This document shows positions 1,222 to 8,227 of a stretch of 64,000 nucleotides of DNA, one piece after another. The DNA is taken from positions 3,245,501 through 3,309,500 of the forward strand of contig NZ_CP121668.1 of assembly GCF_029714425.1 (NCBI RefSeq), read 5' to 3'. Below the pieces are notes generated by a model that was not told the origin of the DNA, ran no database searches, and saw only the letters and a list, made by a program, of their open reading frames with translations. How positions within the stretch are numbered: position 1 is the first letter of the stretch; each line of letters opens with the position of its first letter. This DNA comes from Bradyrhizobium sp. CB2312 (GTDB lineage Bacteria > Pseudomonadota > Alphaproteobacteria > Rhizobiales > Xanthobacteraceae). The position numbers and the translations under genes were made by a program.

Positions 1222-1375
1222 CCCGGTCGCAAGCCTCGCTCCAGCCACAACTGCCAGCCTAACGGCGGATCGCCGTGACCTCGAAGGACGCGGCGGCCGC
1301 AACGATCAGCACGTCGCACAAGGGGTGGAGTAGCGCGGCGGGCGAGGGCGCTTTTGTCTTTGGGGGACGACAGCA

Positions 1376-1477
1376 ATGCTTTCGATTGATCAGTTCCTGC
1401 GGTTCATCGCCGTGCCGGCCGTGTTCGCGGCCTTCATCATCGCCTCGCAGATCTCGGCGGCGTTGTCGCCGCTCTAA
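1376..1477 (+). CDS. 33-residue hydrophobic microprotein
   Basis: A short frame starting at ATG with a strong SD (GGGGGA, 8 nt upstream) and ending at TAA one base before the 3' end of the convergent Nramp-like gene. The product is almost entirely one transmembrane helix (FIAVPAVFAAFIIASQI). Many bacterial membrane microproteins have this form and bind a larger membrane partner, but no partner is evident here. Support is the SD, the clean hydrophobic profile and the fit between neighbours. No family is recognised. Confidence 0.5.
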   Translation: MLSIDQFLRFIAVPAVFAAFIIASQISAALSPL

Positions 1478-2764
1478 TCAGCCGATCAGGGACGAGCCGA
1501 GCAGGGCGAGGACGGCCAGCGCCATCAGCGCTGTGCCGAGCCAGCCCAGCGCGATCAGCCACGACCGCGCCCTGAAACGGCCCATGATCGCGCGGCTCGA
1601 GACGATCAGCATCATCATCGCCATGATCGGCACCGCGACGACGCCGTTGAGCACGGCGCTCCACACCAGCATGTGGATCGAGTCGATCCCGGTGAAGCCG
1701 AGCCCGAAGCCGATCGCGGTCGCGGCGGCGATGATGGTGTAGAACCCGGCCGCCTCGTCCGGCTTTGCCTCCAGCGTGGCGCGCCAGCCGAATATCTCCG
1801 CAACGCCGTAAGCCGCCGAGCCCGCCAGCACCGGAATCGCGAGCAGGCCGGTGCCGATGATGCCGGTTGCGAACAGGGCGAAGGTGAAATCGCCGGCGAG
1901 CGGCCGCAGCGCTTCGGCTGCCTGCGTCGCCGAGCTGATGTTGGTGACGCCGTTGGCGTGCAGGACCGACGCCGTGGTCAGGATGATGAAGAAGGCGATG
2001 CCGTTCGAGAGCAGCATGCCGGAAATGGTGTCGGCCCTGATGCGCGCAAGCTCCGGACTGCCGCCGCGCTTCAGCTCGCGAAGCGGCTTGTCGCGCTGGC
2101 CGCAATTCATCTCCTCGACCTCCTGGGATGCCTGCCAGAAGAACAAATAAGGGCTGATGGTGGTGCCGAGCACCGCGACCACCATCATGAAATAGTCGGC
2201 GCTGACATTCGTCTGCGGCCACACCGCGGCGAGCACTGCCGTGCTCCACGGGATCTTCACGGTGAAGGCGGTCGCGACATAGGCGAACAGCGCCAACGTG
2301 AGGAATTTCAGCACCGGCGAATAGCGGCGATAGGGCAGGAACACCTGGAGCAGGGTCGAGCCGGCCGCGAAGATGAGCGCGTGCTCGTGGTTGAGGCCGC
2401 CGATGACGAGCGAGAGCGCCTCCGCCATCGCGGCGATGTCGGCGGCGATGTTGAACGTGTTGGCGGCAACGAGCATCGCCACCAGTCCAAGCACCGCCCA
2501 GCGCGGCGCGATCTGCATGACGTTGGCGGCAAGCCCCTTGCCGGTGACGCGCCCGATCTGCGCGCTGACGAGCTGGATCGCGATCATGAACGGCGTGGTC
2601 AGAAACACCGTCCAGAGCAGTCCATAGCCGAATTGCGCACCGGCCTGCGAATAGGTGGCAATGCCCGACGGATCGTCGTCCGCCGCCCCGGTGATGAGGC
2701 CCGGCCCCAGCCGTTGCAGGAAGGTCCGCTCGGATTTCGTCGGGGTCAGGGCGCTGTCGGTCAT
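1478..2764 (-). CDS. Nramp-family (SLC11-like) metal ion transporter, atypical
   Basis: A 428-residue polytopic inner-membrane protein of the Nramp family, which imports divalent metals with protons. The first helix carries DPSG (residues 31-34) where classical Nramps have DPGN. The region equivalent to helix 6, where classical members have the MPH metal ligand motif, reads TTISPY (201-206), so the metal-binding methionine is absent. This points to the divergent Nramp-related branch, for which magnesium or other hard-metal transport, or non-metal substrates, have been proposed, rather than a Mn/Fe transporter. Family assignment is firm from the overall helix pattern; substrate is unknown. No convincing SD lies close to the ATG, so the start could be slightly different. 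Confidence 0.88.
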   Translation of the reverse strand: MTDSALTPTKSERTFLQRLGPGLITGAADDDPSGIATYSQAGAQFGYGLLWTVFLTTPFMIAIQLVSAQIGRVTGKGLAANVMQIAPRWAVLGLVAMLVAANTFNIAADIAAMAEALSLVIGGLNHEHALIFAAGSTLLQVFLPYRRYSPVLKFLTLALFAYVATAFTVKIPWSTAVLAAVWPQTNVSADYFMMVVAVLGTTISPYLFFWQASQEVEEMNCGQRDKPLRELKRGGSPELARIRADTISGMLLSNGIAFFIILTTASVLHANGVTNISSATQAAEALRPLAGDFTFALFATGIIGTGLLAIPVLAGSAAYGVAEIFGWRATLEAKPDEAAGFYTIIAAATAIGFGLGFTGIDSIHMLVWSAVLNGVVAVPIMAMMMLIVSSRAIMGRFRARSWLIALGWLGTALMALAVLALLGSSLIG

Positions 2765-5394: not shown

Positions 5395-5571
5395 CTAGCC
5401 CTCAGATTTCGGCAGCCGCGTTATCCGCTCTTCCTGATCCGCCATGGCGTCGTAAGCCTCGGCCATCCTCAGATATTGCGCGCGCGTTGCTTCGTCGGCC
5501 ATCAGTTCGGACTTGGCGCGCAGCTCTTCGGCCTGGTGGCGGTGCCGGGCTGCTTCGCTCACAAAGTCCAT
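5395..5571 (-). CDS. 58-residue charged helical protein
   Basis: A short frame with an excellent SD (GGAGGGA, 7 nt before ATG). The product is charged and helical, with the internal segment LMADEATRAQYLRMAEAYD, resembling small proteins common in Bradyrhizobium genomes. No membrane segment and no known domain. It lies antisense in the gap between two plus-strand mini-genes. Confidence 0.68.
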   Translation of the reverse strand: MDFVSEAARHRHQAEELRAKSELMADEATRAQYLRMAEAYDAMADQEERITRLPKSEG

Positions 5572-5648
5572 GGGTGAATCCCTCCGGGACGGGTCGAGAG
5601 ACCTATCTTAACGCATGTGAAGGCGGAGGTTTCCATGGCTTGGCATAT

Positions 5649-5819
5649 ATGCTCGATGCCCGACCCGTTGCACGCACACGCCCTTCTCGCAAGCTGCGCG
5701 AGGACAGGATGCGTCTCGACCGTGAATATGCGGAGCAGATCGAGGCGCTTCGCTTCGCGATCCTCGAAAGTGGGATGTCGCGCGTCGAGAGCAAGGCGCG
5801 CCGCGACGACAGGAGCTGA
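5649..5819 (+). CDS. Possible 56-residue basic protein
   Basis: A short frame ending TGA at 5819. The likely core is REYAEQIEALRFAILESG, an amphipathic helix, preceded by an arginine-rich stretch. The ATG at 5649 has no good SD; an internal ATG at 5709 behind GAGGA would give 36 residues. Included because the protein-like core and the local density of similar mini-genes make it plausible, but it may be spurious. Confidence 0.35.
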   Translation: MLDARPVARTRPSRKLREDRMRLDREYAEQIEALRFAILESGMSRVESKARRDDRS

Positions 5820-5944
5820 GGCTGCCTGTCGCACCGACGCGGGCGGAAGACGGCGACGAAACACGCCTGAAACAGTCCTGAAACCAGATCATCCTGAACT
5901 CCTTCGCCCCCGGGCCCGACCAACGGAGCGACAAGGAGACAGTC

Positions 5945-6049
5945 ATGATCCAGATCGGTTCGAAGGAAGAAGTCGCGTTTCTGCTGGCCCTGTTCGGCAC
6001 CCATACCCAGCCGGTGAAGAAGCCGAAGCCGAAATCGCAGCAAAGGTGA
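5945..6049 (+). CDS. 34-residue microprotein
   Basis: Short frame with a very strong SD (AAGGAGA, 6 nt upstream of ATG). The product has a short hydrophobic centre (EVAFLLALFGTH) and a lysine/proline-rich tail (VKKPKPKSQQR). It ends 8 nt before the next gene's ATG, so the two are probably translated from one message. No family recognised. Confidence 0.5.
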   Translation: MIQIGSKEEVAFLLALFGTHTQPVKKPKPKSQQR

Positions 6050-6057
6050 AAGACACA

Positions 6058-6306
6058 ATGCCTGGCCTCGCCGAATGCCAGAGCCTCTTGCGCCTGTTGA
6101 TCGCGAGGGGGGACCCGAAGGCCATCCCACTCGCCAAAGGCGCCATCGACCAATATCTCAACACGGCGCCGGTCAGCGCCCGCGGGCGCGGCCTGCGCCT
6201 GCTCCAGCGCGACGCGCTCGATCAGTATGGCGTCGCGGTCGGCGTGCAGCGTTCGTTCGCCGAGACGGTGGATGCCTATATCGAGCGCAAGCTGGCCGAG
6301 GAATGA
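6058..6306 (+). CDS. 82-residue helical protein, unknown function
   Basis: Starts at ATG with AAGGTGA about 9 nt upstream, immediately after the 34-residue frame. The sequence (CQSLLRLLIARGDPKAIPLAKGAIDQYLN and a long C-terminal helix) has no signal peptide or membrane helix. It looks like a small all-alpha protein. Not recognised further. Confidence 0.65.
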   Translation: MPGLAECQSLLRLLIARGDPKAIPLAKGAIDQYLNTAPVSARGRGLRLLQRDALDQYGVAVGVQRSFAETVDAYIERKLAEE

Positions 6307-6350
6307 GGCGAGCGCGGTCGGCCGATCCAGGCGATCGGGAACCAGTCGGC

Positions 6351-6364
6351 TTAACATGAGTTAA
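6351..6364. promoter_or_regulatory. Inverted repeat TTAACATGAGTTAA
   Basis: A 5-bp arm inverted repeat with a 4-nt spacer, 33 bp upstream of the gene at 6397. It resembles a CtrA half-site pair, but the spacing between the TTAA blocks is 6 instead of the usual 7, so a specific regulator is not assigned. Confidence 0.3.
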
Positions 6365-6396
6365 CTTGCCGGGCGTCCTGTCCGGGAGCGATTGCG

Positions 6397-6603
6397 ATGT
6401 TGCCGAATGATCGGGAATGGCTCGCGATGCTCGTTCAGGCGAGCACGAGCCGCATTCGCGCCGGCAACGAGGTCACGCTCCAGATGCTGCACCGCTCCAT
6501 CGAGATGATCGCGGCCGCGGAGGCGCTGCTGGCCGCGCCCATGCCGCGGGTGTGGCCCAAATCGCAAGATCGGTCGGAAGATTGGTCCGAAAGCGGGTCC
6601 TGA
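6397..6603 (+). CDS. 68-residue helical protein, unknown function
   Basis: ATG behind GGGAGCG. The N-terminal two thirds form a predicted amphipathic helix pair (EWLAMLVQASTSRIRAGNEVTLQMLHRSIEMIAAAEALL), and the tail is polar. No domain recognised. It stands between an inverted repeat and a second zinc-ribbon mini-gene on the same strand. Confidence 0.62.
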   Translation: MLPNDREWLAMLVQASTSRIRAGNEVTLQMLHRSIEMIAAAEALLAAPMPRVWPKSQDRSEDWSESGS

Positions 6604-6668
6604 AACCAAAGTGGCCCCGATTAACCTGGGGCAGGGCGCGCCCCCGCAAAAGCTGCTTTCTTCACAGC

Positions 6669-6836
6669 ATGACAGATGACGACGAAAAACGTGTGGGGTC
6701 GGCGGTGCACCTCTGCCGCCCCTGTCCGGAATGCGGGGCATGGCCGAGGCTCACGCACAAATTCCTGGACCCGCGCAGCGGCGCGACGGTTCGCCTCTAT
6801 CTGTGCGCGTGCGGCAAACACGTCTGGGGCGACTGA
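6669..6836 (+). CDS. 55-residue zinc-ribbon-like protein
   Basis: Contains CRPCPEC near residue 17 and CAC near residue 47, enough cysteines for one zinc knuckle pair, and a basic segment between. The SD is weak. The composition (aromatic and positively charged, LTHKFLDPRSGATVRLYL) is typical of a zinc-ribbon finger. Parallels the zinc-ribbon mini-gene at 3407. Specific role unknown. Confidence 0.58.
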   Translation: MTDDDEKRVGSAVHLCRPCPECGAWPRLTHKFLDPRSGATVRLYLCACGKHVWGD

Positions 6837-6880
6837 AATACCTCTGCAGCTTTTGCTCGAAAGGTATATTGTCACGTCAT

Positions 6881-6963
6881 CACCGGCCGAGGCTCTGCCC
6901 GTAGGCGTCGGTGGCTGAGAGACCGATCGCGCTCCCGCCTGCATAAGCGAAGGGAGCGCCGCC
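6881..6963 (+). promoter_or_regulatory. Structured 5' leader A, SD-sequestering hairpin
   Basis: The leader of the gene at 6964 recurs before the paralogue at 7890. A block of 31 nt (6899-6929) is identical in both. Three helices can be drawn. P1 pairs CACCGGCC (6881) with GGC-GT-CGGTG (6904). P2 pairs TCGGT (6908) with ACCGA (6922) around GGCTGAGAG. P3 pairs GCGCTCCC (6929) with GGGAGCGC (6952) and buries the SD AGGGAG, 7 nt from the ATG. P1 and P2 share bases and exclude each other. In the other copy P3 carries T-A where this has C-G. Regulation of translation is inferred. Confidence 0.55.
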
Positions 6964-7158
6964 ATGGCCCGCAGATCACTCATCGACAGCGTGCACGAAC
7001 TGGCCGCCGAGATCAGGGCGCAGAATGCCCGCATCCGCGAGATGACGGCGCAAGCAGCCAGCGTGCTGAAGGCGCCGCAGCCCGACACCTTCCTCGGCCG
7101 CAAGACCTATGAGCCTTTTCCGAAAGAGGAGGATGTCAGGACGGGCGTGACGGATTGA
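6964..7158 (+). CDS. 64-residue PDTFLGRKT-motif protein (paralogue 1)
   Basis: The N-terminal half is a charged helix (SVHELAAEIRAQNARIREMTAQ) and the C-terminal half carries PQPDTFLGRKTYEPF. The motif PDTFLGR-K/R-T recurs in the gene at 7890, which is preceded by the same RNA leader, so the two are paralogues with a shared control element. The 3' end overlaps the opposite-strand gene at 7136 by 23 bp. No known function. Confidence 0.65.
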   Translation: MARRSLIDSVHELAAEIRAQNARIREMTAQAASVLKAPQPDTFLGRKTYEPFPKEEDVRTGVTD

Positions 7159-7360
7159 GGATGCAGGCCGGGGCGGCGGCGGACGTCGCCTGCTTCAAAA
7201 GCCCGATCTTGCGGCCGAGCTGCCAGACCTCGACATTGCCTTGCCGGGTGAACTGCCGCGCGAAGGCGAGCGCCTTCTCGTCCGACAGGGCCTCGAACGC
7301 TTCGGCGGAGCGGAAGACACCGTTGTCGCCGACCAGGTAAGCGCGATATTGCTGCATCAT
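7136..7360 (-). CDS. 74-residue protein with possible AQFTRQG-type fold, unknown function
   Basis: Starts with MMQQYRAYLVGDNGVF and continues AFEALSDEKALAFARQF and VEVWQLGRKIG, an alternating strand-helix-strand pattern of a small alpha/beta protein. Such small proteins (sequence beginning YRAYLVG) are common in rhizobia, though I assign no function. Its ATG overlaps the stop of the upstream gene (ATGA), so it is translationally coupled to it. Its 3' end overlaps the convergent gene at 6964. Confidence 0.65.
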   Translation of the reverse strand: MMQQYRAYLVGDNGVFRSAEAFEALSDEKALAFARQFTRQGNVEVWQLGRKIGLLKQATSAAAPACILNPSRPS

Positions 7361-7557
7361 GTCGGAGCCCTCAGGCCCGGCGAGCGAAGCCAGGCCTCGA
7401 TCTGGATCGCCGCCTCGTCCTGCCGCGCCTTGCGCAGCAGCATCTCGCGGCTGCGGCCCGGCGGCAGCGCGCGCGCCTCATCGCGCAGGCGCATCACCTC
7501 TTCGGCCAGCCGCTGGTCGAGTGTCTTGGTTTGCTTGAATCGACGCCGCTTCAGCAT
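7357..7557 (-). CDS. Small basic LKRRRFKQT-type conserved protein
   Basis: 66 residues from the ATG behind GGGAGC (6-nt spacing); the upstream in-frame ATG at 7611 lacks an SD. The sequence starts with a basic segment (LKRRRFKQTKTLDQRLAEE), continues with a helix ending in REMLLRKARQDEAA, and finishes with WLRSPGLRAPT. I recognise this as a small protein type widespread in Bradyrhizobium and relatives, but its function is unknown. First gene of a two-gene coupled unit with 7136. Confidence 0.75.
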   Translation of the reverse strand: MLKRRRFKQTKTLDQRLAEEVMRLRDEARALPPGRSREMLLRKARQDEAAIQIEAWLRSPGLRAPT

Positions 7558-7673
7558 GGCGCTGCTCCCTTGTTCGAGTAGGGCGGGAAGCGCAATTGGC
7601 GTTCTCATCACCGATCGATGCCTCGGGCCTTGCGGTGATGCGTTAACTTTACGTTCTGTCCAGGTGGAGAGTC

Positions 7674-7689
7674 CGTATCATATGATACG
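7674..7689. promoter_or_regulatory. Perfect 16-bp palindrome, candidate operator
   Basis: CGTATCATATGATACG is a perfect palindrome in an AT-rich gap in an otherwise GC-rich region. It lies between the divergently read genes at 7357 (minus) and 7890 (plus). The shape is that of an operator for a dimeric repressor such as GntR or TetR type; no regulator is adjacent. Confidence 0.4.
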
Positions 7690-7762
7690 TAACTGCAAAG
7701 AATCTTCGACCAAGTCTGAGACGTTTGAGCGAATTACTCATTTTACTGCGGTGCGATTTCCG

Positions 7763-7778
7763 TGTTCAATTTTGAACA
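7763..7778. promoter_or_regulatory. Inverted repeat TGTTCAATTTTGAACA, candidate operator
   Basis: Two 7-bp arms, TGTTCAA and TTGAACA, around TT. It lies 30 bp upstream of RNA leader B and 74 bp from the palindrome at 7674. Together these suggest a regulated promoter for the gene at 7890, which the copy at 6964 does not share. Confidence 0.35.
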
Positions 7779-7807
7779 ATAGGGACCTCTGGTCGTTGGC
7801 CAGACAT

Positions 7808-7889
7808 CACCGGCCAAGGCTTCGTCCGTAGGCGTCGGTGGCTGAGAGACCGATCGTGCTCCCGCCTGCAATGCGAGGGAGCACGCGTG
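7808..7889 (+). promoter_or_regulatory. Structured 5' leader B, SD-sequestering hairpin
   Basis: Second copy of the leader at 6881. CACCGGCC (7808) can pair with GGCGTCGGTG (7831), or TCGGT (7835) with ACCGA (7849). The SD hairpin pairs CGTGCTCCC (7855-7863) with GGGAGCACG (7877-7885), a perfect 9-bp stem. The single substitution within about 45 nt of otherwise identical 5' sequence, T7857 for C6930, is matched by A7883 for G6958, so base pairing is kept. This is a compensatory change and supports a functional RNA structure. Confidence 0.55.
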
Positions 7890-8060
7890 ATGCGGATCTA
7901 TCGCCCATTGCCAATCGACCATGAGCGGGCCGAATTCATGCGGAAGTTGGCGCATGAATGCCGAGAGCTGTTGAGACAGCCGCTGCCCGATACGTTTCTC
8001 GGACGCAGGACGATGGATGCACCGCGGAGGGAAGACGAGGAGGGTGGCGGCGAGCGGTGA
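7890..8060 (+). CDS. 56-residue PDTFLGRRT-motif protein (paralogue 2)
   Basis: ATG start 8 nt after AGGGAG; a GTG one codon upstream is also possible. The sequence has a charged helix (ERAEFMRKLAHECRELLRQ) and the motif PLPDTFLGRRT shared with the protein at 6964, then an acidic/basic tail. Same length class, same order of elements and same RNA leader, so a duplicated gene-plus-leader cassette. Function unknown. Confidence 0.6.
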   Translation: MRIYRPLPIDHERAEFMRKLAHECRELLRQPLPDTFLGRRTMDAPRREDEEGGGER

Positions 8061-8227
8061 CCACTTGCGCGGAATGAGCTTGCGGGGAGCACGACTTCGC
8101 ATTGCGCAGAACATCGAACGACCGTTTGACGTTGCTCTCTATTTGTTCCAAGTGACGGCAGCATCTCAACCTTAGGGCGAGCCGTGATTGAGCATCAGTC
8201 GCGCCTCGAACTTGCGTGGGGCGGCCG

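Follow-up and report, generated by a model that had tools for sequence, protein, structure and literature searches.

We analysed a 64,000-nt stretch of the Bradyrhizobium sp. CB2312 genome (NZ_CP121668.1, positions 3,245,501 to 3,309,500; hereafter the window, numbered from its first letter) and found that two small plus-strand genes within it are each preceded by a member of an RNA family of about 80 nt. The element consists of a hairpin, P1 (CACCG/CGGUG), a CUGAGAG junction and a second hairpin, P2, in which the Shine-Dalgarno (SD) sequence pairs with GCUCCC. Comparison between copies establishes, at the level of sequence, P1, P2, the SD pairing, the conserved junction, the position of the start codon and the use of the element on unrelated genes. 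We consider it probable that this structured 5' leader serves to gate the translation of stress and signalling genes. The bolder proposal, that it constitutes a new class of signal-operated RNA switch across the Alphaproteobacteria, in which kissing hairpins and a CUGAGAG receptor form a second translational gate of the general stress response under a ligand or protein, is more tentative and falls a little short of an even chance. The parts of the two plus-strand copies, with their open reading frames (ORFs), are as follows.

6878..6963 (+): leader of copy 1, spanning the predicted start of transcription to the last base ahead of the ATG; covariance-model match 6878-6959
6881..6885 (+): P1 5' arm CACCG of copy 1, partner 6909-6913; absent from the single-sequence optimum of this copy
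6903..6907 (+): AGGCG in the P1 loop of copy 1; proposed kissing partner CGCCT at 6936-6940
6909..6913 (+): P1 3' arm CGGTG of copy 1, partner 6881-6885
6915..6921 (+): unpaired CTGAGAG junction of copy 1, nearly invariant in alignment A6
6929..6936 (+): P2 5' arm GCGCTCCC (anti-SD) of copy 1
6936..6940 (+): CGCCT of copy 1, the final base of the P2 arm and the start of the P2 loop; proposed kissing partner
6952..6959 (+): P2 3' arm GGGAGCGC of copy 1, holding the SD GGGAG at 6952-6956
6964..7158 (+): small ORF 1, 64 aa, TFLGRK family
7773..7797 (+): extracytoplasmic function (ECF)-type, EcfG-like promoter of copy 2, TGAAC-N16-CGTT; a kind of motif enriched at a constant spacing ahead of the element
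7805..7889 (+): leader of copy 2; covariance-model match 7805-7884, the best in the genome
7808..7812 (+): P1 5' arm of copy 2, partner 7836-7840
7830..7834 (+): AGGCG in the P1 loop of copy 2; proposed kissing partner 7863-7867
7836..7840 (+): P1 3' arm of copy 2
7842..7848 (+): CTGAGAG junction of copy 2
7855..7863 (+): P2 5' arm CGTGCTCCC of copy 2
7877..7885 (+): P2 3' arm GGGAGCACG of copy 2, with the SD
7890..8060 (+): small ORF 2, TFLGRK family; 56 aa from ATG 7890 or 57 aa from GTG 7887

A first-pass annotation of the window had described two genes with a common PDTFLGR(K/R)T motif and an identical 31-nt block in their leaders, both of which we recovered from the sequence (ORFs 6964-7158 and 7890-8060; block at 6899-6929 and 7826-7856). 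It had also pointed to matched changes at C6930/T7857 and G6958/A7883, and the stems that contain them, 6929-6936/6952-6959 and 7855-7863/7877-7885, are indeed both perfect. The leader length it gave, about 82 nt, agrees with model matches of 82 and 80 nt, although the start of the conserved element has to be set at 6878 and 7805. Its interpretation as a duplicated two-copy cassette did not hold, as the two leaders proved to be members of a large RNA family, with a third copy lying between them on the minus strand.

BLASTN of window positions 6860-7160 against the whole genome returned 16 places. Because MAFFT alone misaligned the SD arm, we used a covariance model built from four copies (R1), which was then grown. 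At E<=0.01, R1 found 17 places in the window's own genome and matches in 23 of 25 genomes of the genus, with 17, 19 and 13 copies in the richest three and 1-8 in the others with a match; the 16 genomes searched from the order's other families gave no match. Here and below, genome counts take in the window's own genome. An alignment of 95 matches (A5, 94 distinct rows) gave a second model, R2, which at E<=1e-3 detected the element in 68 of 149 genomes of the family (28 of 47 genera) and at E 1e-4 in 12 of 249 genomes of the order, including six from outside the genus, each one from another family, and in three of 289 genomes of the class. A third model, R3, was made from the 73 matches of alignment A6; it matched 13 of the 289 class genomes at 1e-3 (11 of 224 genera) and nine of 150 genomes in a draw from the phylum of unstated class composition, all nine from the same class. 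Other orders of the class thereby show scattered copies. These figures for spread are lower bounds, since searches covering over 40 genomes scored few candidates per genome, and the E-values are rough because calibration was shortened. The homologues with covarying stems that the first-pass annotation had called for were therefore found, and the stems covary in each of three alignments.

In A5, 92.3% of the P1 and P2 cells were paired compared to 89.3% after shuffling, with double changes in nine of 13 pairs and 37 double-change cells against 9.1 shuffled. A6 comprised 73 rows (67 distinct), all but four of them not used to build R2, and gave similar values: 90.3% against 87.3% paired, double changes in eight of 13 pairs, and 37 double-change cells against 12.7. 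The effect was larger in A8, an alignment of 30 mostly distant rows, where 87.3% of cells were paired compared to 75.4% after shuffling, ten of 14 pairs carried double changes, double-change cells numbered 52 against 15.2, and the covariation score reached 0.417 against 0.184 shuffled and at most 0.123 in slid controls. P1 was paired in 98.5% (A5), 99.4% (A6) and 95.6% (A8) of its cells; in the remote copies its letters have been rewritten while its pairing is retained. The final pair of P2 (A6 columns 94-125) was looser, being unpaired in 33 of 67 rows. Among the 67 distinct A6 rows the junction kept GAGAG in 66-67, its C in 65 and its U in 55. In 157 of 167 copies the closing 11 nt of P2 contained an SD-like 4-mer, as counted with a permissive list of eight 4-mers and no control. 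The predicted energy of P2 had a median of -12.4 kcal/mol, with values of -18.8 and -17.6 kcal/mol in the plus-strand window copies, and predicted opening of the SD window had a median of 0.251 over 154 copies compared to 0.361 in 70 ORFs taken as controls, which is a modest gap (p 0.00025). Collectively, the copies carry a conserved, compensated hairpin over the SD beside the start codon, as expected of an SD-sequestering leader, and the compensatory changes bear out the earlier reading of a cis-acting leader.

We then considered the 168 copies of A5 and A6 (159 distinct sequences) together with the genes that follow them. An ATG stood 1-6 nt after P2 in 126 of the 168, compared to 4.3% at random sites, and 154 had an ORF of at least 28 codons starting between -6 and +19 nt from the P2 end. 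Most of these ORFs were short (138 of 154 encode at most 100 aa; median 67). Family scans covering 104 of the 137 non-redundant downstream proteins matched 41 Pfam families at E<=0.01, and among the 25 of these listed we noted DUF6894 in ten proteins, a Crp-type helix-turn-helix in four, a cNMP-binding domain in four, PAS_4 in three, HisKA_2 in three, a response regulator in one and several zinc ribbons. We presume that the HisKA_2 kinases come from L167, L191 and L221, which are loci of sphingomonad type; the L191 kinase is the one named in the Pfam listing and scored 102 bits against NCBIfam PhyK, far under the cut-off of 750. Distant copies again precede proteins that by eye are Crp/Fnr-like, response-regulator and DUF6894-like. 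The downstream genes are mutually unrelated, comprising DUF6894 proteins, TFLGRK small proteins, Crp/Fnr proteins, response regulators and PAS-HisKA_2 kinases. In 100 homologous pairs with 45-93% protein identity, which are not independent of one another, the leader was 75.7% identical compared to 64.0% for coding sequence, 46.6% for the promoter stretch and 38.1% for both flanks.

Upstream of the element, at a fixed place, we looked in deduplicated copies for an ECF-like motif, [GT][GC]AAC-N14-18-(NGTT or [CGT]ATT). It was present in 34 of 86 A5 copies compared to six of 1720 shifted control places, and in 12 of 66 A6 copies compared to six of 1320. This motif resembles the EcfG motif of Sphingomonas, given as GGAAC-N17-20-GTT in PMC6599016. 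Pooling A5, A6 and A8 gave 186 copies, or 168 once similar upstream stretches had been removed, of which 47 had the ECF-like motif and 121 did not. Among the latter, A stood at -10 in 69 and T at -6 in 62, and 28 showed a GNNTAN box starting at -15/-14, a housekeeping-like -10 box. These positions give moderate support to transcription starting at or beside the first base of the element, and it is because both kinds of promoter place the start there that we read the element as RNA.

The two hairpins are probably also in contact with each other. We compared four pairs that would join AGGC of the P1 loop to GCCU of the P2 loop, which are part of none of the covariance models, and found 95.4% pairing compared to 92.9% shuffled in A6, with five double-change cells against 1.9, and 97.6% compared to 96.7% in A5, with three against 0.4. 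Stretching the contact to six pairs lowered the pairing to 91.1%. In an alignment-free test, a Watson-Crick run of at least five was present in 75 of 144 unique loop pairs compared to 6.8% when the P1 loop was shuffled, a result that we take as support and not as proof, since the loops share ancestry. As judged from these loops, conservation of the AGGC:GCCU contact is moderately supported.

Based on these observations, we propose the following mechanism. Either an EcfG-like stress promoter or one of the housekeeping type would start transcription on the element's first base, and the RNA would fold into P1, the nearly invariant CUGAGAG junction and P2. By pairing the SD with GCUCCC, P2 would block ribosome loading. 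P1 and P2 would probably kiss via AGGC:GCCU to give one compact body in which P1 braces P2. We infer further that a partner, either a small molecule or an RNA-binding protein, may read CUGAGAG and open or lock this body, and that stress and signalling genes would in this way also be controlled at translation; the most conjectural parts of the scheme are the switching itself, the direction in which control runs and the partner.

A number of results weigh against this interpretation. The fold-energy z-scores of the window copies (-1.46 for copy 1 and -0.25 for copy 2) are no better than chance. As the energies are unexceptional, and as one compensated pair shared by only two copies says little, the argument has to be comparative. 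That comparison favours P1 and P2 from the outset, as the alignments were fitted to the P1/P2 model. The rows are also related to one another: of the 73 in A6, four duplicate a sequence of A5, and of the 30 in A8, 12 come from A6 loci. ORFs of at least 28 codons also occur at 42% of random sites, so that only the ATG position is telling, and 14 of the 168 copies lack an ORF where one would be expected, in some because the fetched stretch ends. For the kissing contact, the outermost A-U pair is broken in eight of 61 cells, and versions slid by two or three columns in A6 reach eight double-change cells each, with pairing of 37.7 and 29.4%; because slid versions reach more such cells than the contact itself, double changes alone do not decide the matter.

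Folding predictions raise a further difficulty. The first-pass annotation had proposed that UCGGU:ACCGA forms a second fold exclusive with P1, and this pairing does lie in the single-sequence optimum of both plus-strand copies when longer stretches with short flanks are folded, whereas P1 is in neither. The predicted optimum contained P1 in 81 of the 159 distinct copies and UCGGU:ACCGA in seven; the remaining 71 had neither. Pair probabilities over these copies averaged 0.51 for P1 and 0.04 for the alternative. UCGGU:ACCGA was not conserved over the family: its pairing was 71.4% compared to 71.3% for shuffled columns in A6, with no double changes, and 78.9% compared to 79.0% in A5, with one. 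The pairing may therefore form in some members without being a family trait. As this only alternative fold checked is not conserved, and no systematic search was made for folds that free the SD, an intrinsic two-state switch is not demonstrated. In copy 2 the single-sequence fold also pairs CATCAC 7805-7810 with GTGATG 7887-7892 at the start codon, which in this model would be a possible further way of hiding the start site.

Among the explanations that we weighed, a ligand-binding riboswitch is a special case of the gate, in which a small signal molecule locks or opens the SD hairpin through the kissing body and CUGAGAG. The high conservation of unpaired bases, the probable kissing hairpins and the presence of a single element on many unrelated genes, several of them encoding signalling proteins, speak for it, but in the plus-strand window copies P2 is predicted to be very stable even with no ligand bound, the lengths of the P1 and P2 loops vary widely and the sole alternative fold checked lacks conservation; we regard it as possible though unlikely. 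A static element, whose hairpin would simply hold translation down or shield the 5' end of short stress mRNAs with no switching involved, would fit the stability of P2 in most copies and the lack of any alternative fold shown to be conserved. However, a plain hairpin would need no nearly invariant unpaired CUGAGAG, no loop-loop contact and no anti-SD loop conserved across orders, and we consider this less likely again. It is rather improbable that a trans-acting small RNA (sRNA) opens the leader in the manner of a toehold, by base-pairing to the anti-SD arm and to the junction. In its favour, the GCUCCCGCC arm and CUGAGAG show sequence conservation beyond what pairing alone would ask, and GsrN offers a precedent in concept, stress sRNAs being able to activate leaders according to the portion of PMC5869019 available. 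Against this, the pattern CTGAGAGNCN{3,10}GCTCCCGCC occurs at 12 places in the window's own genome, 11 of them inside model-detected copies, and these core-pattern places gave no sign of a long antisense partner (11 examined; a short sRNA is possible). The twelfth CTGAGAG...GCTCCCGCC core place, at G000:C1:5750589-5750610, lies outside the model-detected copies. The 8-mer GGCGGGAG occurs 201 times forward and 247 times in reverse in the same genome (404 and 379 for the reversed control), and alone is useless for an antisense search, being too common.

The three other explanations are far less likely. An RNA thermometer, one of the signals that the first-pass annotation had suggested, would suit an SD hairpin in an apparent stress regulon, and Bradyrhizobium is known for its ROSE elements. 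In the two plus-strand copies, however, the SD is predicted to be 0.1-0.6% unpaired at 37-42 C and 1.4% and 2.1% unpaired at 70 C, and in copy 3 predicted opening stays at 18-24% over 20-70 C (19-20% at 37-42 C) with no sharp change; unpaired segments are also conserved, and there is no Rfam match to ROSE. With a predicted stability this high, we rejected temperature sensing as very improbable. We give marginally less weight to a mobile DNA repeat that carries a promoter and has no RNA function. Some genomes have up to about 20 copies, arrays and divergent pairs occur, and one copy is truncated and another lacks an ORF, but base pairs change in step, most copies share a single orientation and start-codon distance, the leader is retained though promoters differ, and leaders stay with their genes as the flanks diverge. 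A DNA-only repeat is disfavoured because it leaves the compensatory changes unexplained. Least probable of all is a leader-peptide attenuator translated from a GTG inside P1. Both plus-strand copies have a short GTG-GCT-GAG frame (28 aa from 7838; 11 codons in copy 1, by eye), but in the 125 of 168 rows with both landmarks the frame from the GTG to GCTCCCGCC is split 92, 19 and 14, and GCG replaces GTG in eight of 125; as the reading frame is not retained, an upstream ORF (uORF) attenuator was rejected.

The minus-strand features between the two plus-strand cassettes are as follows.

7558..7640 (-): leader copy 3, divergent; P1 7633-7640/7606-7613, TGAGA 7603-7607, P2 7585-7593/7559-7569
7357..7557 (-): small ORF 3, RRRFK family, 66 aa from ATG; by eye the same protein type as follows the elements of L028, L029, L083 and L106
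7136..7360 (-): small ORF downstream of ORF 3, with a 4-nt overlap; by eye like the leader-driven proteins of L124 and L280

Copy 3, which was found by eye, reads CATCACCG...CGGTGATG, TGAGA, GCGCTTCCC...GGGAGCAGCGC and then ATG 7557. It was missed by the covariance models (R1 at E up to 1, and the later model searches). We regard it as a leader because its single-sequence fold is P1 plus an SD hairpin, because a second genome retains it in the corresponding syntenic region, and because the L106 and L098 junctions, which by eye precede the same protein type, are similar. The whole arrangement is retained in that second genome, with the 5' ends of the plus-strand copies 930 nt apart compared to 927 here. 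In L106, L098:452-529 and window 7558-7640 the junction variant TGAGAACGCC or GAGAACGCC replaces CTGAGAGACC, together with the RRRFK family, and this variant is possibly a subtype with a different partner. Two further small ORFs lie nearby: 6669-6836 (+), 55 aa, zinc-ribbon-like and by eye resembling the leader-driven L098 protein, and 5395-5571 (-), 58 aa, by eye resembling the L127/L134 proteins. Positions 5395-8060 thus resemble a gene cluster in which the members are small and of stress type.

Further copies were observed elsewhere. In the window's own genome, a truncated copy at G000:C1:7888314 (L012) and a copy without an ORF at 2916471 (L010/L026) are apparently decayed. Leader-and-small-gene cassettes tend to occur in arrays, and L086, L061, L062, L075, L083, L084, L092, L098 and L101 each carry two or three elements within 3 kb. 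At L209, divergent elements at 1972-2039 (-) and 2169-2235 (+) stand before a response-regulator-like and a Crp/Fnr-like gene, and at L289 divergent elements at 1330-1403 (-) and 1501-1574 (+) stand before a DUF6894-like and a Crp/Fnr-like gene. Scanning named genomes for a sequence pattern returned at least 119 stretches, 23 of which were searched with R2. Among the 119, the 80 listed were mostly from Bradyrhizobium, with Afipia, Tardiphaga, Rhodopseudomonas, Rhodoplanes, Hyphomicrobium and Beijerinckiaceae, and also included Sphingomonas, Rhizorhabdus, Altericroceibacterium, a Rhodospirillaceae bacterium, several unclassified metagenome-assembled genomes (MAGs) and one stretch from a MAG labelled Acidobacteriaceae. 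Seven contigs of the IMG/VR viral collection (L267-L273) carry the element, which could mean either that prophages transport it or that these contigs are host DNA binned wrongly.

If the leaders are switches, they would represent an unrecognised regulatory RNA, present in up to about 20 copies in certain genomes of a large and ecologically important genus of nitrogen-fixing symbionts and with relatives across the class. A single post-transcriptional regulon would then join DUF6894, TFLGRK and RRRFK proteins of unknown function to Crp/Fnr proteins, response regulators and PAS-HisKA_2 kinases. The arrangement of P1, CUGAGAG, P2 and the kissing contact provides a testable model and would offer a handle on translation control in the alphaproteobacterial general stress response.

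The leader family appears to be new, consistent with the earlier impression that it matches no described family, although a BjrC sRNA (Madhugiri et al. 2012) may be the same. Rfam 15, applied to the window with gathering cut-offs, returned nothing, and it gave only three unrelated weak matches in region 6600-8200 at E up to 10. Across 16 further loci it returned no ROSE and only RF00059 at L209 4884-4989 (+), about 2.6 kb from the element and unrelated to it. An open-access literature search did not find a description of the element, and six of its sequence strings occurred in none of that text. ROSE elements (RF00435) share with it a short 5' leader, a last hairpin over the SD, several copies per genome and an association with stress genes. 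The element differs in having no Rfam match, an anti-SD of GCUCCC, a far higher predicted stability, a conserved unpaired junction and probable kissing loops, and no chaperone family was among the 25 listed Pfam families of its downstream proteins. The thiamine pyrophosphate (TPP) riboswitch (RF00059) has the string CUGAGA in common with the element, as part of its thi-box, and was rejected because RF00059 does not match the element and the genes are unrelated. Kissing-loop riboswitch aptamers are similar in their two hairpins with loop-loop pairing, conserved junction and many target genes, whereas the element has no known ligand, no Rfam match and only two helices.

Within Bradyrhizobium and Rhodopseudomonas, the Br-REP1 and Br-REP2 repeats are likewise multi-copy palindromes, but in the available text of PMC5082802 they are placed in 3' untranslated and intergenic regions, in contrast to a 5' leader at start codons; we rejected them since the consensus strings printed there differ, as compared by eye only. 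The same portion of that paper gives the BjsR1-10 sRNAs without sequence, and their description sets them apart. The B. japonicum start-site map (PMC4842269), in the part available, describes different things from the element. The duf1127_1 leader of S. meliloti is also a regulatory leader of a small alphaproteobacterial gene, but according to the accessible section of PMC12218461 it works via a translated uORF and transcription attenuation, whereas the element has no conserved frame. A parallel in setting is GsrN, which the available part of PMC5869019 describes as a SigT/EcfG-dependent trans-acting sRNA of Caulobacter, found by BLASTn only in Caulobacteraceae, with position-based candidates in Rhizobiaceae, Rhodopseudomonas and Bradyrhizobium. 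A free-standing sRNA of this type was rejected on account of the ATG that follows P2 in most copies. Both GsrN and the element would belong to the alphaproteobacterial general stress response, are C-rich and would add a post-transcriptional layer; from what that source describes, GsrN is a separate trans-acting sRNA, whereas the element is part of the mRNA that it precedes.

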